This document shows positions 4,066 through 54,800 of a DNA stretch of 64,000 nt, in pieces; positions within the stretch are counted from its first letter, which is position 1; each line of letters begins with the position of its first letter. A program made the translations under genes and the position numbers. The stretch covers positions 2,382,720 through 2,446,719 of the forward strand of contig NZ_JAJKFT010000010.1 of NCBI RefSeq assembly GCF_020966755.1. Reading direction: 5' to 3'. Origin of the DNA: Blastopirellula sediminis (GTDB lineage: Bacteria > Planctomycetota > Planctomycetia > Pirellulales > Pirellulaceae). The notes under the pieces were generated by a model. The model saw only the letters and a list, made by a program, of their open reading frames with translations, had not been told where the DNA came from and made no database searches.

Positions 4066-4307
4066 CGGATGTCAAATTCAAGTTCGCTGCGACGACGACT
4101 GTCGCACATCCGCCATCTCGTTGCGTTCATGTCGCTTTACTACGCCGACGCATCGCCGGAGTACCGCCGCTTACTGACGCTGTTGCGGCGCGTTAGTCGC
4201 ATGCGATCGCGAATGCGCATGCGGTCGTTAGCGGCGTCGACCAAGGTCTTCCTGTTCGCCTCGGCCCGCTGCTCGGCGGTTCATCACGTTGCGCTATGGA
4301 GAGTCGA

Positions 4308-36336: not shown

Positions 36337-38754
36337 ATGCTGCATCGCTGGACGAAACAGATCGTAGTGACGCTAAGCTGCGTCGCGCTTGCGCTCAACG
36401 GCTGTTCGTTGCGGTGCTGGCGGCTCTATGACTGTCCTGATCCTCCTGCGTACGACGAAGATCTGATCGCGAAGTACGCCGGTCGCGGGTTGACGATCGA
36501 AGACCCGGTTCCGAACGCTTGCGAAGACGACTTTCTGCCGAGCGTTCCGGTCTCGCCCGATGCGGCGGTCAGCGGCGAAGTGAAATACGCCAACATCTCT
36601 TTGCAAGAAGCGGTGGAGACGGCGCTGGCCAACTCGCAGGTCATGAAAGACCTTGGCGGCGTCCTTCGCAGTCCTGAAGCGCTGGAAACGATCTACGATC
36701 CGGGCCGCGTTTACACCGACGGTCGCTTCGGCGAAGAGGCGGCTCTGAGCGCGTTTGACGCCAGCTTCGGCGCTTCGGCCTACTTTGAACAAAACGACTA
36801 CGGCGTGAACAACGTCACGGTCGGTCAGAACGGTCTGTTCAAACAAGACTACAACAACTACGAGATCTCGCTGCAGAAGAAGAGCGTCACCGGCGCCACC
36901 TTTACGTTGCGCAACGTCACGCAGTACGACAATAACAACCAGGAAGCGTCGTTCATCACCAACCCGTTCGTCTTCGGGCAATCATGGACGAACTACGCCG
37001 AAGCTCAGTGGCGCCAACCGTTGATGCAAGGCGCCGGCGTCATGTACAACCGCATCGCCGGTCCGAACGGCGAGCCGGGCTTCGCCAACGGCGTGTTGGT
37101 CGCTCGCACGCGAACCGACATCAGCCTGGCCGAGTTTGAAATCGCGGTGCGTAACCTGGTCAGCGACGTCGAAAACGCCTACTGGGACCTCTACTACGCC
37201 TATCGCGACCTTGACGCCAAGGTCGAGGCTCGCGACAACGCCCTCCGCGTCTGGCAGAACGTTCAGGCCAACGCCGGTCAAGGACGCCGCACCGCCGACC
37301 AGGAAGGTCAGGCCCGCGAACAGTACTATCGCTTTGAGTCGGAAGTGATCAACTCGCTGCATGGCCGTTTGACGCCGCGCACGCAAACCAACTACGGCAG
37401 CTCGGGCGGTACGTTCGTGCAGACCGGCGGCGTTCGCGTGTCGGAACGTCGCTTGCGCGTGATCATGGCGGTCGACATTAACGGTCCGCAACTGCTGCGT
37501 CCGTCGGAGGATCCGCCGGTGGCGAAGGTGAAGTTCGACTGGGATGCGATCGCGCTGGAAGCGGTGGCTCGTCGCCCGGAACTGCGTCGTCAGAAATGGG
37601 TCATCAAGCAGAAAGAGCTGGAACTGCTGGCGAACAAGAACTTCCTGAAGCCGAATTTGGACCTGGTCGCTCGCTATCGTCTCCGCGGCTTCGGCAAAGA
37701 CCTGTGGGGCTACGATCAGCCGCAGTACGACAATGCGATTCAAAGCATGATGGACGGCGACTTCCAAGAGTATCAAATGGGGGTCGAGTTCGACATGCCG
37801 ATCGGCTTCCGCCGCGGTCATGCCGCCGTCCGAAGTTCGGAACTCGCCTTGGCTCGCGAAAAAGCGATCCTCCGCGAGCAAGAAAACTTCATCATGTACG
37901 GCTTGAGCAACACGTACGGCGAAATCGAACGTGCTCACCAGGTGATGGAAGCGCAGTTCAATCGTCGCGAAGCGGCCTACGCCCAGCAGCGTGCGGTCGA
38001 AGCTTCGCACGAAGCCGGTTTCGCACCGCTCGACCTGCTGCTCGAAGCGCAACGCCGCGTGATCGACGCCAACATCCTGTTCTATCAGGCTCGCGTCGAC
38101 TACGCCCAAGCGATCAAGAACGTCCACTACGAAAAAGGGTCGTTGCTTGAGCACAACAACATCTTCATGACCGAAGGGCCGTGGCCGCAAAAGGCGTACT
38201 ACGACGCGCTGCAGCGTGATATGAACAAGCGGCACGCGTTGACCAACTTCGTGATCAACGACGCTTTGATCGGCACGAAGGACCGCCCGTCGTTCCCGCT
38301 GGAACCGGCCAAAGAGCCGTACAAAGGAACGCCGATCTTTGAAGGTCCGGCTTTCCCCGAAACGTCAGACGCGGAACCGGCGATGCCCGAGAACCCGCTC
38401 CGCAAAGAGCAGAGCGAAGCGTCTGCGGTCCAGCCGGCGTCGATGAACGCTCCGATTGGGCAGGACGTCTCGGCCCGCGTGATTGAAGCGTTTGGCGACG
38501 AGAATATTGACTTTGGCGGCGACGAAGAGGTCCACTCTCCCGTTTGGATCCATCGCGAACCAGCTTCCGGTCGTGCGGCGGTTGATCGTCCCGCCGTCGG
38601 CCCTGCTATCGCCGCTCAACCGAAAGCGAATCAGGCGATGATCGCTCCCCCTTCCGTCAAACGCCCGGCGCCGGCGCAGGAAACTGCTCCCGAACAGGAA
38701 GTGAACTTCAGCGGCGAATCGGCGACCGATTCGGCCTTCTGGATCAATCGCTAA
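36337..38754 (+). CDS. TolC-family outer-membrane efflux protein with C-terminal extension
   Basis: 805 residues. A signal with lipobox-like ALNGC (Cys near 23) and Cys-rich start. Residues about 85-610 have the TolC/OEP pattern: YANISLQEAVETALANS, ISLAEFEIAVRNLVSDVENAYWDLYYAYRD, long coiled coils, EEQENFIM-type second half, APLDLLLEAQRRVIDANI. The last 170 residues are Pro/Ala-rich and lack TolC homology. They contain a duplicated motif (FGGDEEVHSPVWIHR, FSGESATDSAFWINR) and end in WINR. TolC proteins form the outer-membrane duct of tripartite exporters. It lies upstream of the adaptor operon at 42490, which is its likely partner. Confidence 0.82.
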   Translation: MLHRWTKQIVVTLSCVALALNGCSLRCWRLYDCPDPPAYDEDLIAKYAGRGLTIEDPVPNACEDDFLPSVPVSPDAAVSGEVKYANISLQEAVETALANSQVMKDLGGVLRSPEALETIYDPGRVYTDGRFGEEAALSAFDASFGASAYFEQNDYGVNNVTVGQNGLFKQDYNNYEISLQKKSVTGATFTLRNVTQYDNNNQEASFITNPFVFGQSWTNYAEAQWRQPLMQGAGVMYNRIAGPNGEPGFANGVLVARTRTDISLAEFEIAVRNLVSDVENAYWDLYYAYRDLDAKVEARDNALRVWQNVQANAGQGRRTADQEGQAREQYYRFESEVINSLHGRLTPRTQTNYGSSGGTFVQTGGVRVSERRLRVIMAVDINGPQLLRPSEDPPVAKVKFDWDAIALEAVARRPELRRQKWVIKQKELELLANKNFLKPNLDLVARYRLRGFGKDLWGYDQPQYDNAIQSMMDGDFQEYQMGVEFDMPIGFRRGHAAVRSSELALAREKAILREQENFIMYGLSNTYGEIERAHQVMEAQFNRREAAYAQQRAVEASHEAGFAPLDLLLEAQRRVIDANILFYQARVDYAQAIKNVHYEKGSLLEHNNIFMTEGPWPQKAYYDALQRDMNKRHALTNFVINDALIGTKDRPSFPLEPAKEPYKGTPIFEGPAFPETSDAEPAMPENPLRKEQSEASAVQPASMNAPIGQDVSARVIEAFGDENIDFGGDEEVHSPVWIHREPASGRAAVDRPAVGPAIAAQPKANQAMIAPPSVKRPAPAQETAPEQEVNFSGESATDSAFWINR

Positions 38755-39423: not shown

Positions 39424-42105
39424 TTACAAGATCTCGTAAGCGAAGTCTCCCGTTTCGCCGACCGTGACGTTGACGCCGCCGATCTCGCCCCCTTCGGCCA
39501 TCCGGGCGAGGAACTCCGACGAGAGTTCCGGCAGCAGCGTGCGGGTCAGGATCTTGTCGACGTTGCGAGCGCCGGTGTCGACTTCGGTGCAGCGAGCGGC
39601 GATCGCGTCGACCAGTAGATCGGTGTAGTCGAACGAAGCGTTGTAGTTTTCTTTCACCCGCTTGCCGACCTTCTTCAGCTTCAAGCGAACGATCTGCTTC
39701 ATCACGTCGTCGGCCAGCGGGAAGTAAGGGATCACGCTGACGCGGCCGAGGAACGCCGGTTTGAACGTCTTCAGCAGCTCGTCATGCAGCGCTTCGCCCA
39801 ACTGTTCGGGGCTCGGCTGACGCTGAGGATCGCGGCAGAGCTGCATGATCAGGTCGGTGCCTGCGTTCGACGTCATGATGATGACGGTGTTCTTGAAGTC
39901 GATGTCACGTCCTTCGCCATCCTTCATGTGACCTTTGTCGAAGACCTGATAGAAGATGTCCTGGACGCCGGGGTGAGCCTTTTCCATTTCGTCGAGCAAG
40001 ATCACGCTGTACGGCTTGCGACGGACCGCTTCGGTCAGGACGCCACCTTCGCCGTAACCGACGTAGCCGGGAGGGGAGCCCATCAGCAGCGAAACTTTGT
40101 GCTCTTCCTTGAACTCCGACATGTTGATCGTGGTCAGGTTTTGCTCGCCGCCGTAAAGCAAGTTGGCCAGCGTCAGGGCCGTTTCGGTCTTACCGACGCC
40201 GCTTGTTCCGGCCAGCAAAAAGATGCCGATCGGACGGCTCGGATCGTCGAGGTGAGCCCGAGAGGTGCGGATGCTTTCGGCGATCTGGTTCATCGCGTGC
40301 GACTGACCGACGACCGCTTCTTCCATCAGGTTTTGCAAGTTCATCACCGTCTTGATCTCGTTGGAGACCATGCGGCCGACCGGGATGCCGGTCCAAGCGG
40401 CGACCGTTTCGGCCACCGCGGCGGCGTCGCAGCAAACGTGGACCAGCGGGTCTTCCCCTTGGGCTTCTTCCAGTTCGCTGTGGGTCGCTTGGATTTGCGA
40501 GCGGATGTCGGCCCGCTCTTCATCGGTCAACAAGACCGGCGGCTCTTCTCCTTCTTTGACCGGAACGCCGCGGAGAGCGTCGTCGTCGATCAGCTGTTTT
40601 TGCAGGTCGCGAATCTTGAAGACCAACTCTTTTTCGTTCGCCCAGCGTTCGTTCAGTTTTTCAAGCCGTTCGGTTTCGGTCGCGCGAGTCGCTTCCAGGT
40701 CGGCGATCGCGGCGGTGTGATCTTCGGCGCCGGCCGCCATTTCTCGTTCCAGAATCGCAATCTCGGTCGTCAGCTGTTCGATGTGACGATGGGCGTCTTC
40801 GATTTCGGGCGGAGTCGAGTTCTGGCTCAGACCAATGCGGGCACACGTGGTATCGAGCAGGCTGACCGCCTTGTCCGGCAGCTGGCGGCCGCTGATGTAG
40901 CGGTTCGAAAGTTTGACCGCCGCTTCGACCCCTTCATTCAGAATGCGAACGGCATGATGCTTTTCGAGGGTCGCGACCAGACCGCGCATCATGTCCATGC
41001 ACTTCGGCTCGCTCGGCTCTTCGACTTTGACCACTTGGAAGCGGCGAGCCAGAGCGGCGTCACGTTCAAAGTACTTCTTGTATTCAGCCCAGGTCGTCGC
41101 GGCGATGGTGCGGAGTTCGCCGCGAGCGAGCGCCGGCTTCAGCAAGTTGGCGGCGTCCCCTTGTCCGGCTTGTCCGCCGGCGCCGATCATGGTGTGAGCT
41201 TCGTCAATGAACAGGATGATCGGTTTCGGCGAGCTTTTGACTTCTTCGATGACCGACTTCAACCGGTTTTCAAATTCCCCTTTGACCCCGGCGCCCGCTT
41301 GCAACAGCGCTAGGTCCAGCGAGCGGATCGAAACGTTGGCCAGCACTTCCGGCACGTCGCCGGCGGCGATGCGGAGAGCGAAGCCTTCGACGACGGCGGT
41401 TTTGCCGACGCCCGCTTCACCGGTGAGGATCGGGTTGTTCTGGCGACGGCGGCAGAGGATGTCGACGATCTGGCGGATTTCGTCATCGCGGCCGAGGACC
41501 GGATCGATGGCGCCACTCTTGGCGCGTTCGGTCAGGTCGACCGTAAATTGGTCGAGCGACGGTGTCTTCGACGGCTTCTTCGGTTTGCCGTCGGTCGCGG
41601 CGTCGGCCTTTTCGGACTTGGTGGTCGATTCGTCGGTATCGGCGGTGATGCTGAGAAGTTCTCGTTTTAGCGATTCGACCGAGATCTTGCCGAGAGCCGA
41701 CGAGCTGCCGACGATCGCACGATTGGAGTTTTCGTCGCTGAGCAGGGCCAGCATGATGTGCCCGGTGCGGACCGCCGGTTCCCCATATTCGATCGAAGCC
41801 AACAGCCAGGCGTCGCGAGCCAGGTCGACGACGGCCGGAGCGATGCTCGGCGGACGGCCGTTGCCGGTCTTGAAGCGGTCGATGGCGCGGGTCAGCTCGG
41901 TGGTGAACTGAGTCCGGTCAATTTCGTAATGCTTCAGGATCGCTTCCAGGTCGGTAAACGGGGCTTCCAGCATCTTGGTAAGCCAGTGTTCGACCTCAAT
42001 GTTGTAGTTGGTCCGCGACAGGCAAAGCCCGGCAGCTGATTCAAGAGCGCCACGGCAGACCGGGTTCAGTTTGCCGACGAGTGATTTCAGATTGAGTCCG
42101 GACAT
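39424..42105 (-). CDS. ClpV/TssH-type AAA+ ATPase
   Basis: 893 residues from MSGLNLKSLVGKLNPVCRGA (42105). Longer upstream reading frames are not supported. The N-domain is ClpV-like (AGLCLSRTNYNIEVEHWLTK). Two AAA+ domains follow: first Walker A GEAGVGKTAVVEGFAL near residue 226 with ILFIDEAHTMIG, second GTSGVGKTETALTLANLLY near 632 with ILLDEMEKAHPG. ClpV disassembles contracted type VI secretion sheaths. No other tss gene is in the window, so either T6SS genes lie elsewhere or this is a ClpB-like relative. It diverges from the export operon at 42490. Confidence 0.85.
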   Translation of the reverse strand: MSGLNLKSLVGKLNPVCRGALESAAGLCLSRTNYNIEVEHWLTKMLEAPFTDLEAILKHYEIDRTQFTTELTRAIDRFKTGNGRPPSIAPAVVDLARDAWLLASIEYGEPAVRTGHIMLALLSDENSNRAIVGSSSALGKISVESLKRELLSITADTDESTTKSEKADAATDGKPKKPSKTPSLDQFTVDLTERAKSGAIDPVLGRDDEIRQIVDILCRRRQNNPILTGEAGVGKTAVVEGFALRIAAGDVPEVLANVSIRSLDLALLQAGAGVKGEFENRLKSVIEEVKSSPKPIILFIDEAHTMIGAGGQAGQGDAANLLKPALARGELRTIAATTWAEYKKYFERDAALARRFQVVKVEEPSEPKCMDMMRGLVATLEKHHAVRILNEGVEAAVKLSNRYISGRQLPDKAVSLLDTTCARIGLSQNSTPPEIEDAHRHIEQLTTEIAILEREMAAGAEDHTAAIADLEATRATETERLEKLNERWANEKELVFKIRDLQKQLIDDDALRGVPVKEGEEPPVLLTDEERADIRSQIQATHSELEEAQGEDPLVHVCCDAAAVAETVAAWTGIPVGRMVSNEIKTVMNLQNLMEEAVVGQSHAMNQIAESIRTSRAHLDDPSRPIGIFLLAGTSGVGKTETALTLANLLYGGEQNLTTINMSEFKEEHKVSLLMGSPPGYVGYGEGGVLTEAVRRKPYSVILLDEMEKAHPGVQDIFYQVFDKGHMKDGEGRDIDFKNTVIIMTSNAGTDLIMQLCRDPQRQPSPEQLGEALHDELLKTFKPAFLGRVSVIPYFPLADDVMKQIVRLKLKKVGKRVKENYNASFDYTDLLVDAIAARCTEVDTGARNVDKILTRTLLPELSSEFLARMAEGGEIGGVNVTVGETGDFAYEIL

Positions 42106-42489
42106 CAGGCGGCTTTCGCGTCTGGGAGGGAGGTTGGCGTGTCGTCGCGGGGGGCGCAAGATGCGCCTTCGGGAGTGTAGGATCACATCGACGTACGGGG
42201 CGAAATTGCATCCCCGGGCGATTCGCTTCCTACCAGAATGGGCGCCGACTAGGCGGGTTGGGAGGGTTGTGCCGACCAAATGTCGACTGCAGGCAACAGG
42301 TTTTCAGAAAGCGGCGTTTGGCCGAGCGACATGTGAATATATTGGAACCTGTCAGGCGACGTGATTTCCCCTCGTCAGGACTGACCATTATCATGCATGC
42401 TCACGGATGCGCGGCGAGGAACGCCGCCGCACAAAGAGGCTCCGGTCTGGGTAGGACGTCCAGCCGCTACGCCACTTTTTAGTCCGCTT
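42106..42489. other. divergent intergenic region between ClpV-type gene and export operon
   Basis: About 384 bases. Contains the promoters of both divergent units. A 42391-42489 ATG-initiated extension of the GAF gene exists but has no family support. No repeats or hairpins of note. Confidence 0.4.
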
Positions 42490-44511
42490 ATGTCTTCCGA
42501 GTCCCCAATTTCGGTCCGCACGGCTGAGGACGCTCGCCGGCAACTTGATTCGCTGTTGGACGAACTGGCTGATCTGGCCGAAGGTGCGTCCTCACCGGAA
42601 GAGTTTTGGCCAGAGCTGCTATCGCGGCTGATCTTCGCCGCTTCGGCCCAGGGCGCCGCCATCTGGCAACTGGGCGCTTCACGTCGTCTCCAACCCTTAT
42701 ATGAACAAGGGTTCGACAAGGTCTATTCCGCCCCCCAGCGCGACGTCGCGATTGATATCGACGCCTGTTCGCTGGAAGCGGCGCTTCGCAAGCCGAAAGC
42801 CTCGGCGATCGTCAGCGGCGGAGAGTCAGGGGGCCAGACTCGTTTGATGCTGGCCGTGCCACTTGAGACGGTCGCTCGTACGAGCGCCCTCTTGGTGCTG
42901 TATCAACCGGCCGATTTGCCGGCAGTGACTCAAAACGGACAGCTGCGGCTACTCGACGCGTTTGGCGAGATTGCCGTTCATTTTCAAGAGCGGCGGCTAT
43001 TGGCCGATTTCGCCGGCGCCGAACAGAACTGGAAGAATCAACTTTACTTTGCTCGCGACGTCCATCGTGAACTCGACGTCCAGCGGACTTGCTACCGCAT
43101 CGCCAACGACGGCCGCTTGGCGCTCGACGCCGATCGGGTCAGCGTCGCCGAGTGGGATGGCCCCGCCGCCTACATCCAAGCGATCAGCGGCATCGACGTG
43201 ATCAATCGTCGCGCCGCCGTGGTACGCAAACTAGAACGACTGGCGACCGCCGTCGCCAAGCAGAAACAACCGATCATCTTCCGCGGCGATCGCGAAAACC
43301 TGCCGCCGCAAATCGAAGACGCGCTGGTCGACTATCTGGAAGAGTCGCCGGCTCGACTGCTGATCGCGGTACCGTTGGTCCGTGAGGAAGAGCACGAGGA
43401 AGAAGAGGAAGCGACGGCGGAAGGGACGCTGGTCGGCGTGATGATCGTCGAACAGCTGGAAGCGACCGAGGTCGAACGACTGTTGTCGCGAACCCGTAGT
43501 CTGGCCGAAACGGCGAGTATTGCGCTCGATAACGCCCAACGTTACGAAAAGCTGCCGCTGCGAGGCGTGATGCAGTTCGTCGGGATGGTGCTTGCCCAAT
43601 TTGGTTGGCGGAAGCTATCGCGCACGATGCGTTACGTACTGCCGGTCTTGCTCGTCTTGTTGGCGACCTGGCTGATTCCGGCGCGATTTGAAATCGATGT
43701 TCGTGGGCAATTGCAGCCAGAAGTCGAACGCCAGTTGTTCGCGCCGCTCGACGGTTATGTCGATGAGATCTTGGTGAAGCATGGGCAAATGGTTGACGCC
43801 GGCGAGGTGGTCGCCAAGCTTCGTTCGCCCGACTTGGAACTGAAACAAACCGAAACGGCAGGTCTACTCGCCGCCGCACAGTCGGAGCTCGACGCGGTCC
43901 GTGTCGAACGGACGCAGAACACCCGCCGTGACGATGATCGCCGCGACAATCGGAGCGCCGATCGCGATCAGCTGTCAGCCGACGAGATTCGCCTGACGCG
44001 GCGGATCGCCAACTTGCAGGAGCAACTGCTGCTGCTCGACAAGCAACAGCAAAGTCTGACGCTGACCGCGCCGGTCGCCGGGCAGATTCTGAGCTGGGAC
44101 ATTGATGAAACGCTTCAGGCCCGCCCGGTATCGCGGGGCGATTCGCTGCTGAAAGTCGCGGAAGTGGATGGCCCGTGGGTTCTGAAGCTGGAAGCGGCCG
44201 ACCGCCGAACCAAGCATATTCTCGACGCCCAAGCGGCGACGAAACAAGAACTGCCGATCACCTTTCACCTGGTCAGCGAACCAGGCGTCAAACATCAAGC
44301 GAAGCTGACCGAGGTTTCGCAGGTGATTGACGTTGGGAGCGAGACCGACGAACCGGCGGCGCTGCTGACCGCCAGCTTTGACAAGACGGAGATCGATTTC
44401 CTGCGACCCGGCGTTTCGGTTTCGGGCCGCGTCGATTGCGGAACGCGCAGCTTGGCATACGTCTGGACGCACGAACTTTGGGAAGCGGTACGCCGCCGCC
44501 TTTTCTGGTAA
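42490..44511 (+). CDS. GAF-domain membrane protein fused to HlyD-type adaptor
   Basis: 673 residues. It starts at MSSESPISVRTAEDARRQLD. A long N-terminal cytoplasmic part contains a GAF-like region (about residues 60-370; FGEIAVHFQERRLLADFAG, RELDVQRTCYRIANDGRLAL, LIAVPLVREEEHEEEEEATA). One transmembrane helix follows at about 383-400 (YVLPVLLVLLATWLIPARFE). Next is a lipoyl/adaptor domain (RQLFAPLDGYVDEILVKHGQ, DAGEVVAKLRSP), a coiled coil and a beta-barrel. It thus couples a cytoplasmic sensor to a periplasmic adaptor. First gene of a three-gene operon; the next start is eight bases past its stop. Confidence 0.8.
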   Translation: MSSESPISVRTAEDARRQLDSLLDELADLAEGASSPEEFWPELLSRLIFAASAQGAAIWQLGASRRLQPLYEQGFDKVYSAPQRDVAIDIDACSLEAALRKPKASAIVSGGESGGQTRLMLAVPLETVARTSALLVLYQPADLPAVTQNGQLRLLDAFGEIAVHFQERRLLADFAGAEQNWKNQLYFARDVHRELDVQRTCYRIANDGRLALDADRVSVAEWDGPAAYIQAISGIDVINRRAAVVRKLERLATAVAKQKQPIIFRGDRENLPPQIEDALVDYLEESPARLLIAVPLVREEEHEEEEEATAEGTLVGVMIVEQLEATEVERLLSRTRSLAETASIALDNAQRYEKLPLRGVMQFVGMVLAQFGWRKLSRTMRYVLPVLLVLLATWLIPARFEIDVRGQLQPEVERQLFAPLDGYVDEILVKHGQMVDAGEVVAKLRSPDLELKQTETAGLLAAAQSELDAVRVERTQNTRRDDDRRDNRSADRDQLSADEIRLTRRIANLQEQLLLLDKQQQSLTLTAPVAGQILSWDIDETLQARPVSRGDSLLKVAEVDGPWVLKLEAADRRTKHILDAQAATKQELPITFHLVSEPGVKHQAKLTEVSQVIDVGSETDEPAALLTASFDKTEIDFLRPGVSVSGRVDCGTRSLAYVWTHELWEAVRRRLFW

Positions 44512-44519
44512 CTGACGAC

Positions 44520-45440
44520 ATGAAACGAATCCTGACTTGGACCTTGGCGATCGCCGCTCAGATCTCTTCGCCGGTTGCGGCCGCGGATATTTCGGTCAAC
44601 TCGACGCTGCTCAAAATCATTGAGACGGTCGAAGTGCCGGCGCAACAGGCCGGAGCCCTCGATAAGGTCAACGTCCGCGAAGGAACGATCGTCGATCGGG
44701 GCGAGTTGCTCGCGCATATCGCCGACAAAGAGATGGAGTTGGAACTGGTCGCGAAGAAGGCGGAGCACGCGATCGCCCAGCGGGAAGCGGAGAACGACGT
44801 CAATATCCGCTTCTCGAAGAAGTCGCTCGAAGTCTCGCAGGCCGAATTGCAACGAGCCTTGGACGCGATCGCCAACTTTCCGAACGCCGTGACGCAGACC
44901 GAGCTCGATCGTCTCCGTCTATTGGCGGAGAAGAACCGGCTGGAAATTGAACAATCGAGCGAACAGCAAGAGATCGCCAAGCTGACCGCCAATCTGAAAG
45001 AAGCGGAAGCGGCGATCACCGGCGAACGTCTCGCCAAGCACAAGATCGTCGCGCCGATCGAAGGGATGGTCGTCCATGTCTTTCGTCGCGAGGGGGAATG
45101 GGTCGACATCGCCGATCCGGTGGTGAAGATCGTCCGGATTGATCGCCTGCGAGCGGAAGGGTTCGTGCGGAGCGACGAAGCGGCGATCGGATTGCAAGAT
45201 CGCGCGGCGACGGTGCGCGTTTCGCTGCCTGGAAGCGATCCGTTGGTAGTGCCGGGAAAGGTGATCTTCGTCGATCCGGAAGTCGACCCGGTTAACGGCG
45301 ACGTTCGCGTCTGGGTTGAAATTGATAACGCGGATTTGAAACTCCGCCCTGGTTTGCGGGTCGAAATGTCGATCTCGACCGATGAGATGGCTGACGACGC
45401 CAAAACCCCGGCGGCCGCAGAAGTCTCGGTGGAAAAGTAA
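44520..45440 (+). CDS. HlyD/RND-type periplasmic adaptor
   Basis: 306 residues from the ATG at 44520. Signal peptide MKRILTWTLAIAAQISSPVAA, then adaptor elements: lipoyl motif half (VEVPAQQAGALDKVNVREGT, ELLAHIADKEM), a long coiled coil (about 75-165), second lipoyl half (HKIVAPIEGMVVHVFRREGE) and beta-barrel (VRVSLPGSDPLVVPGKVI). Such proteins link an inner-membrane unit to a TolC-like channel. Stop TAA is followed three bases later by the GTG start of the protease fusion, so the two are co-translated. Confidence 0.85.
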   Translation: MKRILTWTLAIAAQISSPVAAADISVNSTLLKIIETVEVPAQQAGALDKVNVREGTIVDRGELLAHIADKEMELELVAKKAEHAIAQREAENDVNIRFSKKSLEVSQAELQRALDAIANFPNAVTQTELDRLRLLAEKNRLEIEQSSEQQEIAKLTANLKEAEAAITGERLAKHKIVAPIEGMVVHVFRREGEWVDIADPVVKIVRIDRLRAEGFVRSDEAAIGLQDRAATVRVSLPGSDPLVVPGKVIFVDPEVDPVNGDVRVWVEIDNADLKLRPGLRVEMSISTDEMADDAKTPAAAEVSVEK

Positions 45441-45443
45441 ACG

Positions 45444-47630
45444 GTGGGCGCTTCGCTGAACGTACGCATTCGTCCCGATCTGAAGATCGTTCGCCAGCAG
45501 GGAACGCTTGAGCCCCGCTTTGTGGTGAAGGATCCGGTGACGCTGCGCTACTTCTATTTCGGCGAGCATGAGATGTTCATCTTGCGGCGGCTCGACGGGC
45601 AAATGTCGGTCGCCGAAATTCAAGACGCGTACCAAGAAGAATACGCTCCGCTGAAGATTCGCCCGGTCGAGATTACGTCGTTCTGTCATTCGCTGCATGC
45701 CCGCGGTCTGGCGATCGCCGGAGTGACGGGACAATCCAAGCAACTGCTGGAACGAGCCGAGCAACAGCGACTGTGGCGATGGTCGACGGCGCCGTTGTCG
45801 GTCCTTTCGATCCGCTTGCCCGGCGTCGATCCTGATCGAGCGCTCGACGCGATCGCTCCCTACTTCGCGTGGCTCTTTCACCGGACGACGGTCATGACCG
45901 TGCTGGTGATCGCCAGCGCCCTGATGCTGATGGGGCTGCTGCATGTCGAAGAGATCTTGCAGCGGATGCCGACGGTGCAGTCGCTATTTCAAGGCGAGAA
46001 TCTCCTTTGGATGGCGCTCGCGCTGGCGATGGTCAAGATTCTGCATGAGCTGGGACACGCGCTGGCCTGTAAACATTTCGGGGGCGAGTGTCATCAGATC
46101 GGCGTGATGCTGTTGGCGTTTGTTCCCTGTATGTACTGCGACGTGTCGGACGCGTGGCTGTTGCCTGACCGGAAGCGGCGGATGTTCGTCTCGGCGGCCG
46201 GGATGTACGTCGAACTGATCGTCGCGTCGTTCTGTGCGGTGCTGTGGTATTTCAGCGAACCGGGGATCGTGCAGTCGATTTGCTTTAGCGTGATGCTGGT
46301 TGCGAGCGTCAGTACGCTGTTGGTAAACGGCAACCCTTTGATGCGGTACGACGGGTATTACATCTTCGCCGACTGGGTCGACGTGCCGAACTTGTCGCAG
46401 CAAGCGAGCGAAGCGATTCAGCGTCCGCTGGTTCGATTCTTCACACGTCAGGAGCTGAATGAGGCGCCGCTCGACGCGAATCCTCGCTTCTTACGCACGT
46501 ATGGGATCGCCGCCCTGGTGTACCGGACGATGGTGATCGGGTTTCTCGTCTGGTTCGTCTATAAAATGTTGAAGGCCAACGATCTGGCGCCGCTGGGCGA
46601 TACGGTCGTGGTCTTGGTGGTCGCCGGCTTGCTGTTTCAGCCGGCGATCGGACTTTTCCGCTGGTGGAACCGACCAATGGCGATGCGTGAGATTCGAGGA
46701 AAACGCCTGGCGATTGCGGCGGTCGTGATCAGCGCTTTGCTTCTAGGTGCATCGCAGATCCGTTGGGCCGCACGCGTACAATCGCCGGTCCTGGCGCAGT
46801 TGGCCGACTCGCAGCGGATCTATGTGCCGGTCGAAGGTCGGATCGAATCGACCGTGGCCGCCGGCGATCATGTCATTGCCGGCGAAACGCTCGCTCAACT
46901 GGTCAACGACGATATCCAACTGCGTCGGGTCGAACTGACCGGCGATTTGAACGAACAGCGACAGCATGTCGAAAACCTTCATCGCCAGGTGAATAACGAT
47001 CGCACCGTCGCCGCCCAGATCCCGGCCGCCGAAGCGGTGCTCGCCGACTTGCAGCGGCAACTCGACGTAGTGAGCCGCGACGCGGAGCGACTGACGATTA
47101 AGGCGCCGAGCGACGGCGTCGTCCTCCCACCGCCGCTTCGCGTAGAAGCGGGGCAATCGCAGCGTCAACTGCCGACCTGGAAAGGGACGCCGCTGGAGGA
47201 GAAGAATCGCGGCGCGTTGATGCAGCGGGGAGACTTGCTCGCGATCGTCGCCGAGTCGGACCGGATCGAAGCGCAGCTGCTGATTCATCAGCGCGACGTC
47301 GACCTGGTGAACGTGGGAGACAACGTCGAGCTCCTCTTCGACGGTTTGACCGGTGCGGCGGTTCGAGGACGGATCGTCGAGATCTCACGCGACGAGATTG
47401 TCGACGCTCCCCGTAACTTGGCGCAAGGAGCGGAACTGCCGGTCGAAGAGGGGGAAGCGGGAGAAATGTCGCTGGTCGAACGATCGTATCAAGCGACGGT
47501 CGAACTCGAGTCGGTACCGACGAAGCTGCTGCCCGGCACACGCGGCAAAGCGGTTGTGCTCGGCCGGTCTCTTTCTTTAGGCCAGCGAATCTCGCGCTGG
47601 ATCAGCGGCAACTTCCGTTTCGAGTTGTAG
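45444..47630 (+). CDS. PqqD-like - M50 site-2-type metalloprotease - HlyD adaptor fusion
   Basis: 728 residues with a GTG start. Residues about 1-95 are PqqD-like (FVVKDPVTLRYFYFGEHEMF, EIQDAYQEEYAP), which could bind a peptide substrate. A membrane M50 protease follows: zinc motif HELGH at residues 201-205 and N295-Y306 (NGNPLMRYDGYY), which supplies the third metal ligand Asp, with several helices between. The last part (about 440-728) is an adaptor domain (RIYVPVEGRIESTVAAGDHV, LTIKAPSDGVVLPPPLRVEA, coiled coil). Related proteins are annotated 'putative peptide zinc metalloprotease'. The catalytic residues look intact. Confidence 0.85.
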   Translation: MGASLNVRIRPDLKIVRQQGTLEPRFVVKDPVTLRYFYFGEHEMFILRRLDGQMSVAEIQDAYQEEYAPLKIRPVEITSFCHSLHARGLAIAGVTGQSKQLLERAEQQRLWRWSTAPLSVLSIRLPGVDPDRALDAIAPYFAWLFHRTTVMTVLVIASALMLMGLLHVEEILQRMPTVQSLFQGENLLWMALALAMVKILHELGHALACKHFGGECHQIGVMLLAFVPCMYCDVSDAWLLPDRKRRMFVSAAGMYVELIVASFCAVLWYFSEPGIVQSICFSVMLVASVSTLLVNGNPLMRYDGYYIFADWVDVPNLSQQASEAIQRPLVRFFTRQELNEAPLDANPRFLRTYGIAALVYRTMVIGFLVWFVYKMLKANDLAPLGDTVVVLVVAGLLFQPAIGLFRWWNRPMAMREIRGKRLAIAAVVISALLLGASQIRWAARVQSPVLAQLADSQRIYVPVEGRIESTVAAGDHVIAGETLAQLVNDDIQLRRVELTGDLNEQRQHVENLHRQVNNDRTVAAQIPAAEAVLADLQRQLDVVSRDAERLTIKAPSDGVVLPPPLRVEAGQSQRQLPTWKGTPLEEKNRGALMQRGDLLAIVAESDRIEAQLLIHQRDVDLVNVGDNVELLFDGLTGAAVRGRIVEISRDEIVDAPRNLAQGAELPVEEGEAGEMSLVERSYQATVELESVPTKLLPGTRGKAVVLGRSLSLGQRISRWISGNFRFEL

Positions 47631-47640
47631 CCAGCGTTCG

Positions 47641-48426
47641 CTACGGCAGGACGAAAGCGGCGCCAGTATAGAACGTTCCCATGTAAACGGCGCCGCGCCA
47701 GCTCCAGGGGAGCCCGTGACGATCATGCGGGTTGTTGTCGCCGGGGCGATAGTGACCCAAGGTGTAGATCCGTTCGCAGGGCGGATTCACGCCAACCTTG
47801 TACGGCAGCATGATCGTGTTGGCGAAGAAGTGAGCCGCCGAGACCGCCGGCTGAATCACGCGATGACGGTTTCCGTAGCGCTCGAGATTGACTTCTTCAA
47901 AGTAGAGCGGCTGGTGATAGAAGGCCGGAGCTTCCCACATCGCGACCGACGGCGCCCACGGACGCTGGACGCCGTAGATGGTGTCGACTTCGGGGTATTC
48001 GGCGAACAGTTCCGCGGCGACGTTGGCCGGCAGTTTCACCTGATGGTTGGGACCGGTTTGGATTTCGGGATCGCGGTAGCCGGTGTTGATCGTGTAGGAG
48101 TCGGCCGGGCGACGTTCGAGCAACGTCTGGAGCTGTTCCGGGGTCATATGTTTGAATGGATCTTTGCCGTCAGCGACCGAGCGGTAGAGTTCGCCGTAAC
48201 GTTCGCCAGGGGGAAGAATATCATCTTCGGTGATCATGGCCCCTTTCGGGATGATCTCATCCGGCGGCGGATCGACCGGTCCCAGCTCTGGCGGAGCGGT
48301 CTGAGTAAACGCAGCGGGACGAATGCGAAACGGAGAGGCCGGAGACTCAGCACGGACTTCCCAAGCGGCGAAGATGGCTCCGCAGAGGGGGAGGAAGATC
48401 AGGCAGATAGTGTTGAAATGACGCAT
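47641..48426 (-). CDS. planctomycete-type conserved hypothetical, exported
   Basis: 261 residues. The N-terminus MRHFNTICLIFLPLCGAIFA is a signal peptide with probable cleavage at VRAES. The conserved-looking C-terminal half reads APAFYHQPLYFEEVNLERYG, IQPAVSAAHFFANTIMLPYK, CERIYTLGHYRPGDNNPHD and LPWSWRGAVYMGTF. No known fold was recognised, but this style of block is met again in planctomycete proteins. It lies on the opposite strand, between the export operon and the giant gene, and converges on the operon 10 bases from its end. Function unknown. Confidence 0.65.
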   Translation of the reverse strand: MRHFNTICLIFLPLCGAIFAAWEVRAESPASPFRIRPAAFTQTAPPELGPVDPPPDEIIPKGAMITEDDILPPGERYGELYRSVADGKDPFKHMTPEQLQTLLERRPADSYTINTGYRDPEIQTGPNHQVKLPANVAAELFAEYPEVDTIYGVQRPWAPSVAMWEAPAFYHQPLYFEEVNLERYGNRHRVIQPAVSAAHFFANTIMLPYKVGVNPPCERIYTLGHYRPGDNNPHDRHGLPWSWRGAVYMGTFYTGAAFVLP

Positions 48427-48806: not shown

Positions 48807-51800
48807 ATGAACCGCAAGCGAATCTTCTCGCGCAAGCAGAAACGAAAATCGCGCGGTAGCGATAGCGGCGCAGCCAATCGCTTTCTTGATCAGTTCGACA
48901 CCAAGCTTCGCTTTCGCGAACTCGAACCTCGCGTCGTGCTGACTGCGACGGCCATCGTAGATGGCGACGGCGTTTTGCAGATCACGACCGATGCGCCGAC
49001 GGACGATGTTGAGGTCCGCTTCTACGACAAGGGAGGCGTGGCGACTTACGAGGTGACGAACGACGGAAAGTTCGTCGATGAGTTCGCCGCTGCGACGGTC
49101 AAAGGGATCGAAGCGAATGACGTCTCAGGATCGCAGGTCGATTCGCAACAGTTGACTCTTCTCGACGACCACGCCACGCTCGATCCGAACCTTAGCTTGG
49201 GGTTGGAAACCAAGGGGATCGAAGAGGTCGTATTCAAGGGCTCCGCCCTGGGGGATTCCTGGACGTTCGACAAAATGGTCACGATCGAAGCCGTCAAGTA
49301 TGACGCCGAAGTGAGCCAGAACGGCGCCGATTTGCTGACTCCGATCGGAACGCCGGTGACGTTCTTTGCGATCGACGGCGCCAAGATCGACGTGAATCTC
49401 CAATCGACGACCAACGAGATTTCCCAACTCGCCGTCGGCCATGGCGGAGAAGTCAAGATCGCGACGTCGCAAGACCTCGCCGTTAACAGTTCCAACGCCG
49501 ATCTCCTGCAGTTGACGGCGCCGAACGTCGAGTTGGGGGCCGATACGTTCTCCTCGCAATTTGGCGCTCTTAAGATCGATCTCACGGGAAGCGGCGACAT
49601 CACGCAGAAAGGGGACGTTACTGTCACCGGGGCGACCGATCTGGACGTGATCGGCGGCAAGGTCCTGCTCAACAATAGTGGGAATGACTTCCAGGGACCT
49701 GTTTCGGTCAACGCGCTGAACGTCGTCGACGCCGATACGGCGACGATCGCCGATACGAACGACTTGCAACTGGGGGACATCCGGTCGGCCAAATTAACCG
49801 CGATTACCGGCGGCAATTTGACGCAAGCTTCCGGGACGACGGTCGAAGTGACCGACCTGGTCGACTTTCAATTCACTAGCGCCGGGAAGACGCTCGATTT
49901 GCAGAACGCCGGCAACTTGCTGCCGTCGGACGACGCGAAGTTTCTGCTTAGCGGCCCGGAGAGTCCGACCAATTTTTACCTGCGAAACGACGCGACCGAC
50001 GCGGCGATTCCATTGGCGATCGCGACGCTCGCCGGTACGGGCAGCTTGAACGATCTGACGCTGATCTACACGCAGAACACCACCGCGATCGCACTGCCGA
50101 ATATCGATATCACCGGCGACCTGGTTTATCAGGCGAAGGGGGTGATCGCGCAGACGGCGTTAACGTCGATCAAGGTCGACGGCAACGCCAGCTTCAAGAC
50201 GCTCGACGATCAGAGCATCTTCGTCGACATGGCCGACAATGAGTTCACCGTCGTCTCGGCGACCGGCGCCACCCAGGCCGATGTGGTCGCGATCAACGAC
50301 AACGACGGCGGCTTGGACTTGGACCAAATTGCGGCGACGACGCTGACCGTTCACACGGTTGGAGCGCTGGGGAACGTCGACAACGCGTCGGTCGTCGTCA
50401 GCGGCAACGCCAAGTTGACCGGCGACAGCGGCATCGCACTCGGGAGCGAAACGAGCGACCTGGTGACGTTTGGCACGTTGACGTTCATTTCTCCCGCTGG
50501 GGTCGCGATCGAAGAAGACGATTCGACGCTGCTGACCGGAAAGAATAGCGCCAGTACGCTCGATCTCGATTCGACCGGCAAGATTGAAAACGTCGCTGGT
50601 ACCGAACTGAAGGTTGCCGGCAATGCGTCGCTGACGGCCGACGACGGCGACGACCTGAACGCCAACAACCAGATCACGCTCGGTCAGGACGTTACCGACG
50701 ATTTTGAATTTCTCTCGCTGACGTTCAACTCGGTCGACGCCGTAAAGATCGCCGAGACCGGTGATACCGATCTGGTCGGCAAAAGCACGGCTGGTTCGCT
50801 GGAATTGAAGTCGAGCGGCTCGATCACCAATCAGGACAATGCGGAGCTGAATGTCGTCGACAACGCCAGCTTCATCGCTTCGACGGCGATCACGCTCGGC
50901 AACAAAACGGACGACAGCTTCAAGTTCGGCACGCTCACCTTCGACGCCAGCGGCGCGGTCTCGATCGCCGAAGACGATTCGACCAAATTGAGCGGCAAGA
51001 GCAAGTCCGATTCGCTCGTGCTCGATTCGACCGGCGCGATTCAGAACGCCGCCAACGCGGAAGTGGTCGTCACCAACAACGCCAAGTTCATTGCCGGGAC
51101 GAGCATTACGCTGGGGAACGAAACCTCGGACGTTCTCCAGTTCGGCTCGTTGACGTTCGATTCCGACTTCGGCGTCTCGATCAAAGAAGACGACAGTACG
51201 GTTCTCAGCGGGACCAGCCAGGCGGCGACGCTGCTGTTGCAATCGACCGGTTCGATCACCAACGAGATGAACGCCAAGCTGTACGTCGATGTTTCGGCTC
51301 AGTTTATTGCGACCGACGGCCTCAATAACGGCAACAACAAGATCACGCTCGGAGACCAGACCGGCGACGTTTTCCAATTCGGGACGCTACGGTTTGATAC
51401 GGTCGACGCCGTTTCGATTGCGGAAGACAACGACACGCTGCTGGAAGGGGCGAGCAAAGCAGGTTCGCTCTATCTCGCTTCGACCGGCAAGATCGAGAAC
51501 AAAGCCAACGCCAGTTTGACCGTCGGCGGAAACGCGGAATTCTCCGCCGGTACTGACGTCAAGTTGGGGAATCAGTCCGGCGACAGCATTTACTTCGGTA
51601 CGTTGACCTTTGCGGGGAATGTCGTCGCTATCGCGGAAGACGATGCGACGGTCCTGACCGGCACGAATACCGCGACGTCGCTTGATCTTAAGTCGACCGA
51701 TACGATCACCGATGAGATGGCGACCTCGGTCATGGGCACCGGCCCGGCGACGTTTACCGCCGCCAACGAAATTACGCTGGCCGACGATGCCGACACGCTG

Positions 51801-54800
51801 CATGTGACCGGCCTGGCGACCTTTGAGTCGACCGCGGATAAAGCGATTTCGATCGGCGACGCAACCAGCAGCACCCAGTTCGGCTCGCTCAACTTCAACG
51901 GGGGCGCCGTCGATATTCAGGAATCGGACGCGACGATCTTGAGCGGCGCCAATACGGCGACGTCCGTCATTCTGACCTCGGGCGGTTCGATCACCGACGC
52001 GTCCAAGACGACGGTCGAGGTGACCGGCGCGGCCACCTTCGCCGCCAAAGATGAAATCACGTTGGCCAACGAGAATGACGACAAGCTCGATATCGGCGGC
52101 CTGGCGAAATTCACGTCGTCCGATAACGATGCGATCGCCGTTGGGGACGCGGGTAGCACGACCTATTTCGGCTCGCTGACGTTCAGCGGCGGAATGGTGG
52201 TGATTCAGGAAGACGACTCGACTCTGCTGGCCGGTACCAACGCGGCTTCGTCGCTCAACTTGGAGTCCGGCGGCGCGATTACCGACGATTCGATGACCAA
52301 GGTCACCGTGACCGGCGCGGCGACGTTTACGGCGAAAGATGAAATTACGCTGGCGAACGAGACCGACGACAAACTCGACGTCGGGGGCTTGGCGACCTTC
52401 AAATCGCTCGATGGAGACGGAATCGCTATCGGGGCGAGCGACAGTCTGACCTACTTCGGCTCGCTCAACTTCAACGGCGGCGTGGTCGTCATTCAGGAAG
52501 ACGACTCGACGTTGCTGACGGGGAACAATAGCGCCAGTTCGCTTGAGCTAAGCTCGCTCGGCAAGATCGAAAATGACCCCGGCACGAAACTGATCGTTAG
52601 CGGGAACGCCAAGTTCACGGCTGACGACGGCAATAATCTGAACGGCAACAACCAGATCACGCTTGGTCAGGATGGGGCGGATGATTTCGAGTTCGGCTCG
52701 CTGACGTTCAATTCGGTCGATACCGTCACGATCGCCGAGACCGGCGGGATGCTGCTGACCGGCAGCAACAGTTCCGGCACGCTCTTCCTCAGCGCGACGG
52801 GGAAGATCGAAAACCTCGCAGGGACGAAGCTGATCGCGGATGGCGTCGCGTCGCTGACGGCGGACGACGGCGATAATCTGAACGCCAACAACCAGATCAC
52901 GCTCGGCCAGAACGGGACCGACGATTTTGAATTTCTCGCGTTGACGTTCAATTCGGCGGATGCGGTGAAGATCGCCGAGACCGGCAACACGCAATTGACC
53001 GGCTCCAGCAGCGCCGGTTCGCTGGCACTTACCTCGACCGGCAAGATTGAAAACGCCGCCGGCACGAAGCTGATCGTCGCAGGTAACGCTTCGCTGACTG
53101 CCGACGATGGAGATGATCTAAACGCCAACAATCAAATCTCGCTCGGTCAGAACGGTACCGATGATTTTGAGTTCGGCTCGCTGACCTTCAATTCGGCGGA
53201 CACGGTGGTCATTGCCGAGATCGGCGACACGCACCTTACCGGCGAGAGCGCCGCCAAGACGTTGAACCTCAGTTCGACCGGCAAGATCGACAACGAGGTC
53301 GGCGCCAAGCTGATCGTCACTAGCGGGGCTACGTTTACCGCCGACGACGCCAATGCGGTGAACGCCAACAACCAGATCCTGCTCGGACAAGACGGCGCCG
53401 ACGATTTTGAGTTCGGCTCGCTGACGTTTAATACGGTCGACGCTGTCAAGATCGCCGAAACCGGCAGTACGTTCTTAGAAAACAAGAGCACGGCCGGTTC
53501 GCTGGAACTGAAGTCGACCGGGTCGATCACTAATCAGTCGAGCGCCAAACTGGATGTGACCGGCAACGCCTACTTCATGGCGTCGGTCGACATTACGCTC
53601 GGGGATCAAGTCGACGACAAATTCACCTTCGGCTCGCTGACGTTCGACGGCGGCGCAGTGGTGATACAGGAAGACGACTCGACCGAATTGAGCGGCTCGA
53701 GCTCGGCCAGTTCGCTCGAGTTGACGTCCGGGGGCGCGATCACCGATGCGTCGACGACGGAAGTCGAAGTTGTCGGCTCAGCGACCTTCACGGCGAAGGA
53801 CGAAATCGTCCTCGCGAACGAAACCGACGACAAGCTGGAAGTCGGCGGCCTGGCGACCTTCAAGTCGCTCGATGGCGACGCGATCACCCTGGGAGCGAGC
53901 GACAGTACGACCAAGTTCGGCTCGCTCAACTTCAATGGCGGCGTGGTCGTCATTCAGGAAGACGACTCGACCTTGCTGACCGGGAGTAACACCGCCAGTT
54001 CGCTCGAACTGAGCTCGCTCGGCAAGATTGAAAATGTCGCCGGGACGAAGTTGATCGTCAGTGGAAACGCCAAGTTCACGGCCGACGACGGCAACGCGGG
54101 TAACGCCAACAACCAGATCACGCTCGGTCAGGACATGACGGACGACTTTGAGTTCGTCTCGCTGACCTTCAATACGGTCGACGCCGTGAAAATCGCTGAG
54201 ACCGGCAGTACCGATCTGGCCGGCATGAGCACGGCCGGTTCGCTCGAATTGAAGTCGACCGGTTCGATCACCAATCAAATGAACGCCAAGTTGGATGTGG
54301 CCGGCAACGTCAGCTTCATGGCGACCGTCGACATCACGCTGGGAGACCAGGCTGGCGACAGCTTCACCTTCCAGTCGCTGACGTTTGACGGACAAACGGT
54401 GGCAATCGAGGAAGACGACTCGACGAAGTTGAGCGGGATGAACTCGGCAGCATCGCTTGAACTCAAGTCCGGCGGTTCGATCACCGACGATACGGCGACT
54501 TCGATCGATATCGGCGGAGCGGCCACGTTCCAGGCACAGGACGCGATCACGCTGGCGGACAACGCGACCGACGTCATCGATATCGGCGGCTTGGCGACGT
54601 TCGTCTCGCTGGGCGCCAGCGCGATCGACGTCGGCGTCGATGTAATGATGGCCGATGGCAGCGACAGCGGGGCGAAGGTCAACTTCGGGCAGCTCACCTT
54701 CGTCAGTGACGACGGGATGATGGGCCGCGGGGCGGTGACGATTCGCGAAGATTCGAGCACCGAAATCACCGGAGACAACAAAGCGTCCGATCTCTTCCTG

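Follow-up and report, generated by a model that had tools for sequence, protein, structure and literature searches.

A SecA-unlinked copy of a known M50-HlyD locus in Blastopirellula sediminis as a probable exporter of a giant LEPR-XLL-type protein

In 2015, Kamneva, Poudel and Ward described a locus around a secondary SecA gene in planctomycetes and Proteobacteria which encodes three kinds of protein (M50-HlyD, HlyD and GAF-HlyD), with an occasional OEP gene and no ABC (ATP-binding cassette) gene, and for which the available part of that paper names no cargo (PMC4452313). These authors suggested SecA as the motor and the M50 protein as the pore, took note of secondary SecA genes that are not co-encoded with the other locus proteins, and named a gene of Blastopirellula marina DSM 3645 in a supporting-figure caption (PMC4452313); a word search of the main text returned none of the terms PqqD, LEPR and giant. 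Here, we report a computational analysis of three tightly packed genes of Blastopirellula sediminis which encode the same three kinds of protein, in a stretch of 64,000 nucleotides (the window) that represents 2.38-2.45 Mb of contig C10 in a 7.05-Mb genome. The machinery is this known, uncharacterised locus, while the assignment of a cargo through a shared leader, the identification of a recognition element of the type found in ribosomally synthesised and post-translationally modified peptide (RiPP) systems, the invariant protease and the existence of a SecA-unlinked lineage are new. We consider it probable that the three genes represent the 2015 locus in a copy without a linked SecA and form the inner-membrane and periplasmic parts of an exporter of giant LEPR-XLL-type proteins, the leader of which would be read by the RiPP recognition element (RRE).

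Several described systems resemble this locus in part. Type I secretion systems (HlyB-HlyD-TolC, LapBCE) likewise combine an adaptor with a TolC-type channel and a giant repeat cargo, whereas the window differs by the lack of an adjacent ABC transporter, a proposed N-terminal leader, an intramembrane protease and an RRE. The RREs of the lasso-peptide B1 proteins TfuB1 and TbiB1, and PqqD, share the predicted fold, and the best-matched structures hold leader peptides; in contrast, the window RRE is fused to a membrane protease and an adaptor and is proposed to read a giant rather than a small peptide. The M50 proteases of RiPP systems (daptide, NF041824; epipeptide YydH/LiaK, NF058609) have the same M50 core and active site, whereas the window fusion falls below both curated cut-offs and carries an adaptor half; the epipeptide enzyme EpeP is thought to both cut and export (PMC10885120). 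The secondary SecA_DEAD neighbour of the 2015 locus is not beside the window operon, although it is present beside a second copy of the operon in the same genome. Accessory SecA2 systems likewise place a duplicated SecA beside surface-type proteins, as in that second copy, the secondary SecA of which differs in being short and tied to adaptors. An RND (resistance-nodulation-division) pump with its adaptor, as in tripartite efflux, is not present at 36-64 kb of the window. No paper linking the 2015 locus to LEPR-XLL/DUF4347 proteins or to an RRE was found, most subscription journals and bioRxiv lying outside the coverage of the search, and no function for the LEPR-XLL motif was found in the literature searched; a Vibrio genome paper reports an 8000-aa (amino acid) LEPR-XLL protein, with no exporter mentioned in the part available (PMC10868602).

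The genes that make up the proposed system are as follows.

42490-44511, plus strand: GAF-adaptor (HlyD) gene, ATG start at 42490, stop at 44511
44520-45440, plus strand: adaptor gene of RND/HlyD type, ATG start, 8-base gap after the GAF-adaptor gene
45444-47630, plus strand: RRE/PqqD-M50-HlyD fusion gene, GTG start, 3-base gap after the adaptor gene
36337-38754, plus strand: TolC-type outer-membrane channel (OEP) gene (PF02321, E 9.7e-18)
48807-62273, plus strand: giant LEPR-XLL-type protein of 4488 aa, the proposed cargo on the basis of motif and synteny

A first-pass annotation, made from the letters alone, had described these coordinates, the two short gaps, the plus-strand TolC-type gene at 36337 and the 4488-aa LEPR giant at 48807, all of which hold, and its reading of the three products as GAF-adaptor, adaptor and PqqD-M50-adaptor fusion was borne out by Pfam and NCBIfam and, for PqqD, by a family profile and a structure model. 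The GAF-adaptor protein has two GAF-type regions and an adaptor half (PF01590 at 1.6e-6, then HlyD_3 at 1e-8; GAF_3 at 2.3e-5 is below its own cut-off), and a membrane segment is predicted from its sequence. The separate adaptor matches TIGR01730 at 97.2 bits, above the cut-off of 94.9, and PF16576 at 2e-17, and has a hydrophobic N-terminal segment resembling a signal peptide on a hydrophobicity scale. According to the open reading frame (ORF) list and family scans, no ABC or RND gene occurs among the nine genes at 36-64 kb, in agreement with the earlier view of an exporter without a linked pump; an MMPL-family gene lies at 4296-6782, more than 29 kb from the TolC gene.

The fusion protein is the centrepiece of the operon, and its parts may be delimited as follows.

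45444-45788, plus strand: RRE/PqqD-like domain, residues 1-115 (AlphaFold2, Foldseek, profile)
46044-46058, plus strand: M50 HELGH motif, residues 201-205
46332-46361, plus strand: second M50 motif NPLMRYDGYY, residues 297-306
46761-47576, plus strand: adaptor half (residues 440-711), in which residues 489-548 form a two-helix hairpin in the model

The label 'PqqD' would be unproven on the Pfam match of the N-terminus (E 0.072), and the fold was set by the family profile and the structure model. AlphaFold2 modelled residues 4-114 with a mean pLDDT (predicted local distance difference test) of 91.1, and the top six Foldseek matches were chains from structures of two lasso-peptide B1 proteins in complex with a leader peptide (6jx3, 5v1v and 5v1u; probability 1.00, E 8e-4 to 1.3e-2, one below 0.001). 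A profile of 43 family members searched against the PDB matched TfuB1 (6jx3) at 6.6e-4, PqqD (3g2b) at 0.002 and TbiB1 at 0.024. The N-terminal domain thus models as a RiPP-leader-binding RRE with a winged-helix fold and, by analogy, may bind a leader here too, which lends model-based support to the earlier suggestion of PqqD-type substrate capture.

Both hallmarks of the M50 family, the HExxH motif and the second-helix Asp motif within a helical membrane bundle, are present, and the HELGH and NPLMRYDGYY motifs are intact as had been noted. In an alignment of planctomycete fusions of 143 rows (142 different), H201, E202, H205, N297 and D303 are found in 143/143 rows and P298 in 142, while HExxH is kept in 20/20 proteobacterial fusions. 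Because the site is so invariant, catalysis is to be preferred to a bare pore, and the M50 part argues for the active protease that the first-pass annotation had supposed, catalysis itself being a prediction from sequence. In family searches the fusion matched Peptidase_M50 at 1.1e-7, HlyD_D23 at 1.1e-8, the daptide intramembrane metalloprotease NF041824 at 1.3e-51 (175.9 bits, below the 300-bit cut-off) and NF058609 at 1.3e-14, also below cut-off. The full-length model (pLDDT 82.8, predicted template-modelling score 0.59) comprises the RRE, a helical bundle and the adaptor half with its hairpin. The best Foldseek matches of the latter are Spr0693, MacA and MexA (E about 1e-12 to 1e-11), and all 50 matches listed are adaptors or adaptor-sized chains of pump complexes.

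The giant protein bears the candidate leader and a distinctive C-terminus.

48921-48947, plus strand: leader motif LEPRVVLTA, residues 39-47, after 13 Lys and Arg residues
62100-62150, plus strand: C-terminal hydrophobic stretch, residues 4432-4448, recognised by eye, with analogous stretches in loci L034 and L096-L098
62241-62270, plus strand: Arg-rich C-terminal tail, RLRRRVRQWL (RLRRRMRQWL in L096-L098)

The giant carries 11 DUF5649 repeat stretches (3.4e-55) and no RTX repeat by Pfam; DUF5649 is listed among the stalk domains of fibrillar adhesins (PMC8286594). It conforms to a working definition, drawn up by eye, of a giant repeat protein in which a basic stretch near the N-terminus is followed by LEPRxxLxA. 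As NCBIfam returned no match at E 0.1 and the cut-off of the LEPR-XLL model NF012209 was not reached, the LEPR label rests on motif and synteny. In a scan of two genomes with NF012209, the giant of the relative (G192:C1:1113715) scored 15.7 bits against a 17-bit cut-off and no own-genome match coincided with the window giant; the model was judged too short to be useful as a LEPR finder. Among the leaders examined, the basic residues mostly precede the motif (2-13 Lys and Arg), and on a crude scale no hydrophobic core precedes it. By eye, the window-type giants have in common a Gly/Ala-rich hydrophobic stretch and an Arg-rich tail, both of which are absent from the giants of the second copy.

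The conserved neighbourhood of the operon among planctomycetes involves a further gene.

47641-48426, minus strand: 261-aa protein with an N-terminal hydrophobic segment, between fusion and giant, with homologues in 10 related loci

Neighbourhoods were compared for the best 80 of 241 relatives and, from 97 places with a fusion gene, for 60 as well as the genome's own two. The closest relatives of the fusion are those of B. marina DSM 3645 (L010, 79% identity) and the same-genus genome G192, and a tree of the 143 rows, built by a quick method with rows shorter than 600 aa excluded, places the window in an 8-row clade (one row being its own duplicate) nested in a 34-row clade. Homologues of the 261-aa protein, which itself has no Pfam match at E 1 and no NCBIfam match at E 0.1, adjoin the operon in 11 loci including the window, on the opposite strand in each, and the locus is therefore more than a chance assembly. 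A protein with an LExR N-terminus follows in 9/11 of these loci (the window, L010, L090, L096, L097, L098, L034, L045, where the contig end truncates it to 432 aa, and L102); none lies in the stretch covered in L075 and L084, and L009, a member of the 8-row clade, has neither a 261-aa homologue nor an LExR protein. Close TolC homologues flank the operon in L010, L090, L032, L045, L075, L102 and L127; in the last five the TolC gene is directly divergent from the GAF gene, with homologues at 492-618 bits. No TolC or 261-aa homologue was found at E 1e-5 in 40 control stretches. TolC and the giant are conserved partners of the operon in the lineage of the window, and the partnership with TolC that had been proposed earlier is supported.

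A second line of evidence comes from Proteobacteria. A tblastn search of plasmid records found a relative in 84, 20 of which were hand-picked for spread and examined; the N-terminus of the giant was out of view in six. The strict motif [LIFM]E[PAS]Rxx[LFY]x(1-2)[AG] occurs on the neighbouring giant, or on its first piece, in 12 of the 14 loci that include this N-terminus: Thalassospira (IEPRILLSA), Burkholderia (LEPRVVYDA), Methylosinus (LEPRVLLNA), Pseudosulfitobacter (FEPRVLLSA), Variovorax (LEARYMFDA), Niveispirillum (LEPRMMFDA), Escherichia coli (LESRQLFDGA), Pontibrevibacter (MEPRVLLSA), Azospirillum brasilense (LEPRFMFDA), Kosakonia (LEPRMLFDGA), Tistrella (LEPRMMFDA) and Azospirillum thermophilum (LEPRMMFDGA). 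In the two Azospirillum species the motif sits on a separate first ORF near a large ORF, and in Tistrella on a 1872-aa ORF 4.4 kb after the fusion. Overall, 8/375 ORFs in the plasmid stretches carry it, each a giant or its first piece, as against 1/618 in 40 planctomycete control stretches, the sole control ORF encoding a 3253-aa protein; a Fisher test of 12/14 against 1/618 sets chosen proteobacterial neighbours against all ORFs of the planctomycete stretches and serves as a guide only. Two gene orders are common: giant, TolC, adaptor, HlyD protein and M50 fusion (e.g. Burkholderia, Variovorax, E. coli), and giant, DUF3467, larger adaptor and M50 fusion followed by SecA and/or adaptor plus TolC (e.g. 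Methylosinus, Thalassospira). The giants reach 8847 aa in Methylosinus, 12,737 aa in Pseudosulfitobacter and 16,239 aa in Variovorax. Public annotation gives the LEPR-XLL label in two plasmid records and DUF4347 in three, and DUF4347 comes after the motif in the Burkholderia, Kosakonia and E. coli proteins. With LEPR giants retained both in the lineage of the window and across Proteobacteria, sequence evidence supports the giant as the cargo, as had been anticipated.

Some further observations were made on these plasmids. The Variovorax paradoxus giant (L204, 114-48833), a tandem-95 repeat protein, lies directly before the TolC-adaptor-M50 genes, while that of A. thermophilum (L210, 5140-13324) is apparently annotated as three ORFs, with the motif on a 220-aa 'hypothetical protein'. 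Of 5426 complete E. coli genomes, 24 carry a near-identical copy of the E. coli fusion gene, and 22 of these have 80% or more of it; the M50-adaptor gene is on plasmids at 21 of 25 places, and a 13.4-kb gene for an immunoglobulin (Ig)-like giant stands alongside in the record examined (L205).

These findings bear on two other explanations. The operon could serve RiPP-like maturation and export, in which the RRE-M50 protein would cut a small precursor peptide, the adaptors would export the peptide and the giant would be a mere neighbour; an RRE is typical of RiPP systems and the best M50 family matches are RiPP proteases, both below cut-off. Neither a gene for a small precursor nor a modification enzyme was noticed next to the operons compared, although no search was aimed at them, and leader-bearing giants recur across two phyla, so that we regard this explanation as quite improbable. 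Alternatively, the adaptors could belong to small-molecule or metal efflux, M50 and GAF sensing stress and the giant being there by coincidence, a reading that the RND-type adaptor families would fit. The lack of an adjacent pump, the recurrence of the giants, the RRE fold and the placement of the giant, in most proteobacterial loci examined, immediately ahead of the exporter genes and in the same orientation make such a role very improbable indeed.

The nature of the motor was approached through the second copy of the operon, which lies at C10:3804612-3809977 (3.80 Mb) in the same gene order, with 35% identity to the window in the fusion and 31% in the GAF protein. A 654-aa SecA is encoded just upstream (SecA_DEAD, 2.9e-105) and a DUF3467 gene downstream, after which follow proteins of 1177 and 2912 aa with LEVREVFDA and LEIRDLLAL close to the N-terminus. 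The 1177-aa protein (L007, 15387-18920) combines a cyclophilin domain with Ig domains of bacterial type and also gives weak matches resembling cohesin and dockerin, and at least five proteins with LExR-type N-termini surround this operon by eye (L007/L008, C10 3788143-3824944). A SecA encoded here, elsewhere in the genome, may thus account for the lack of a pump beside the window copy. Among 195 planctomycete genomes, the fusion is found at E 1e-30 or better in 57, and a secondary, usually short SecA occurs in at least 43 of these 57 as opposed to 1 of 28 fusion-negative genomes (Fisher 9e-11, uncorrected for relatedness; the 28, out of 138 fusion-negative genomes, are those in which each place was inspected). 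The 43 comprise at least 37 from one SecA search, two from neighbourhoods (G022, where the match is weak at 57.7 bits, and G070) and four from a further check; one of the 37, G027, has a short SecA beside the fusion and no general SecA among the matches listed. A dedicated SecA is thus the usual case. It is not universal, and an absolute requirement was rejected since 14/57 fusion-positive genomes have no second SecA among the matches listed, e.g. G164 (M50 E 8.5e-176), G018 (2.0e-160), G180 (5.0e-101) and G160 (9.5e-101). SecA is adjacent in 0/26 loci of the larger, 34-row clade with enough flank compared to 26/78 elsewhere, and in 5/20 proteobacterial loci (Methylosinus, Pontibrevibacter, Ensifer, Pseudosulfitobacter and Rhizobium, at E 1e-20). 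The proposal of the first-pass annotation that the protease/adaptor protein alone might replace the pump is not supported, as the family goes with a secondary SecA in most genomes, though not in all.

It had also been suggested that an ABC exporter encoded elsewhere might supply the pump. In seven genomes examined, a PrtD-type ABC model gave no match above its cut-off, as was also the case for all 14 control genomes, and C39 matches were limited to frames of 269-401 aa in four of the seven, with none above 401 aa. The classical type I system in trans thus has no support in these genomes from the PrtD and C39 models, other ABC classes being outside their scope.

Linkage to leader-bearing proteins is uneven among planctomycetes. 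Enrichment of LEPR proteins at operons in general was rejected (8/80 and 11/60 operon loci against 3/40 controls), as was that by another LExR criterion (13/82 and 7/26 against 5/40; Fisher 0.79 and 0.19); the script required a Lys/Arg-rich stretch before the motif, and L102 (LEERIVL), missed by it, was counted by eye. In 140 operon loci, 12/1642 ORFs have the strict motif, two or more of these being doubtful (L044, with 167 aa, and L139), against 1/618 ORFs in 40 controls. Clear LExR linkage is found in the lineage of the window and some SecA-linked loci, and, because LExR proteins are not commoner beside the operon, the cargo genes of other planctomycetes may be scattered or their cargo different. 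As regards a condition by which the first-pass annotation would have been refuted, the LEPR neighbour is missing from most planctomycete operons examined, while it is there in the great majority of the proteobacterial loci with the N-terminus in view. At L030, L042, L050, L053, L067, L070 and L080 the operon is followed by proteins of 1157-1362 aa that look alike and, by reading, begin with a membrane segment; no LEPR motif was seen in them.

A number of observations weigh against the export of giants by a leader-reading system of this kind. The window copy lacks an adjacent SecA, 15/20 proteobacterial loci have no SecA in the stretch covered (including those of Burkholderia, Variovorax, E. 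coli, Kosakonia, Niveispirillum, Thalassospira and five Azospirillum), and, of the 20 genomes with a larger-clade operon, that of B. sediminis included, four (G018, G160, G164 and G180) have a single SecA among the matches listed; for these reasons the motor is uncertain, and the SecA-unlinked form is a recurrent one. No inner-membrane pore was recognised, and the pairing of RRE and leader is drawn by analogy. With regard to the leaders, 2/14 proteobacterial loci lack the motif (Magnetospirillum, with a 492-aa neighbour, and Phyllobacterium), the two second-copy giants fit LExR and not the strict motif, and segments starting at the motif reach 1.80 on the crude hydrophobicity scale as opposed to 1.72 for the signal-like segment of the adaptor used as a control, so that a weak hydrophobic segment may be present there. 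Across planctomycetes, LExR proteins stand beside 20/108 operons against 5/40 control stretches, and an LEPRxLLxA pattern at the DNA level, matched in 67 of 195 genomes, gave 48 matches in the 57 fusion-positive genomes against 45 for a reversed control (hand count). Finally, three ABC matches below the PrtD cut-off were present in two of the seven genomes.

Some of these points would fit a two-step route, in which the giant crosses the inner membrane by general Sec or another path, the adaptors and TolC take it across the outer membrane and the M50 protein only processes it. The operon of the window has neither a pump nor a linked SecA, the four genomes just named show a single SecA, the 15 proteobacterial loci show no adjacent one, and the HlyD half resembles the adaptors of pumps that also accept periplasmic substrates. 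On the other hand, the leaders show no hydrophobic core before the motif (on the crude scale, with motif-start segments as high as stated above), and the RRE, lying ahead of the membrane helices and expected in the cytoplasm, fits capture there; we therefore consider this route unlikely.

For the leader-reading exporter, which we prefer, the following sequence of events may be envisaged. The RRE/PqqD domain would bind the basic N-terminal leader with LEPRxxLxA in the cytoplasm, upon which the M50 protease would cut the leader, or admit and trim the chain, within the membrane. Three adaptor modules, i.e. those of the fusion, the GAF protein and the separate adaptor, would provide a periplasmic conduit to the TolC-type channel at 36337, and a SecA-type ATPase, either the secondary SecA of the second copy at 3.80 Mb or the general SecA, would drive the chain. 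The giant encoded at 48807 would in this manner reach the cell surface, where its C-terminal hydrophobic stretch and Arg-rich tail could possibly act as a last-out anchor. Of this account, the gene content, the folds of the RRE and of the adaptor half, the invariant protease site, the synteny with leader-bearing giants in two phyla and the association with SecA are computed results, whereas the direction of transport, the binding and cleavage of the leader, the motor and the surface location are inferred.

Two remaining genes of the window flank this system.

39424-42279, minus strand: TssH/ClpV gene, situated between TolC and the operon yet no component of the exporter (TIGR03345, 1284.6 bits, cut-off 884.95)
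62478-63998, plus strand: protein kinase gene, cut by the window end (PF00069, 2.1e-39)

A kinase also follows the giant in L034, L097 and L098. ClpV adjoins the operon in the window, L009, L010, L090 and L096-L098, which raised the idea that it might be the motor of a SecA-less variant. It is, in contrast, the TssH equivalog of the type VI secretion system (T6SS) and the only ClpV/TssH at E 1e-250 in a T6SS-bearing genome, the sheath gene TssC being far off at C10:637749; T6SS-like genes, identified by reading, precede it in L009, and it is not next to the operon in the other loci compared. This candidate motor was set aside as largely refuted and hardly credible. In three relatives (G124, G184 and G188), the exporter operon is preceded at a distance of a few kb by T6SS sheath genes.

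The original observation is sound and the idea of export is strengthened by the present analysis. We advance, more tentatively, the broader possibility that these loci represent a distinct class of tripartite exporter built around a leader-reading intramembrane protease, in which a RiPP-type element was recruited from peptide biosynthesis to select giants by their LEPR leader, cutting is coupled to entry into the adaptor-TolC conduit and a SecA-type drive is not always dedicated; the N-termini of LEPR-XLL/DUF4347 proteins could in that case act as export signals over a range that extends from planctomycetes to plasmids of E. coli. If this is true, an uncharacterised locus described in 2015 and a widespread motif would explain each other, and a testable export signal would become available for very large bacterial proteins, which attain 16,239 aa in the loci studied here. 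Leader recognition by RREs would furthermore reach beyond small peptides, and a secretion route without a conventional pump would be suggested.

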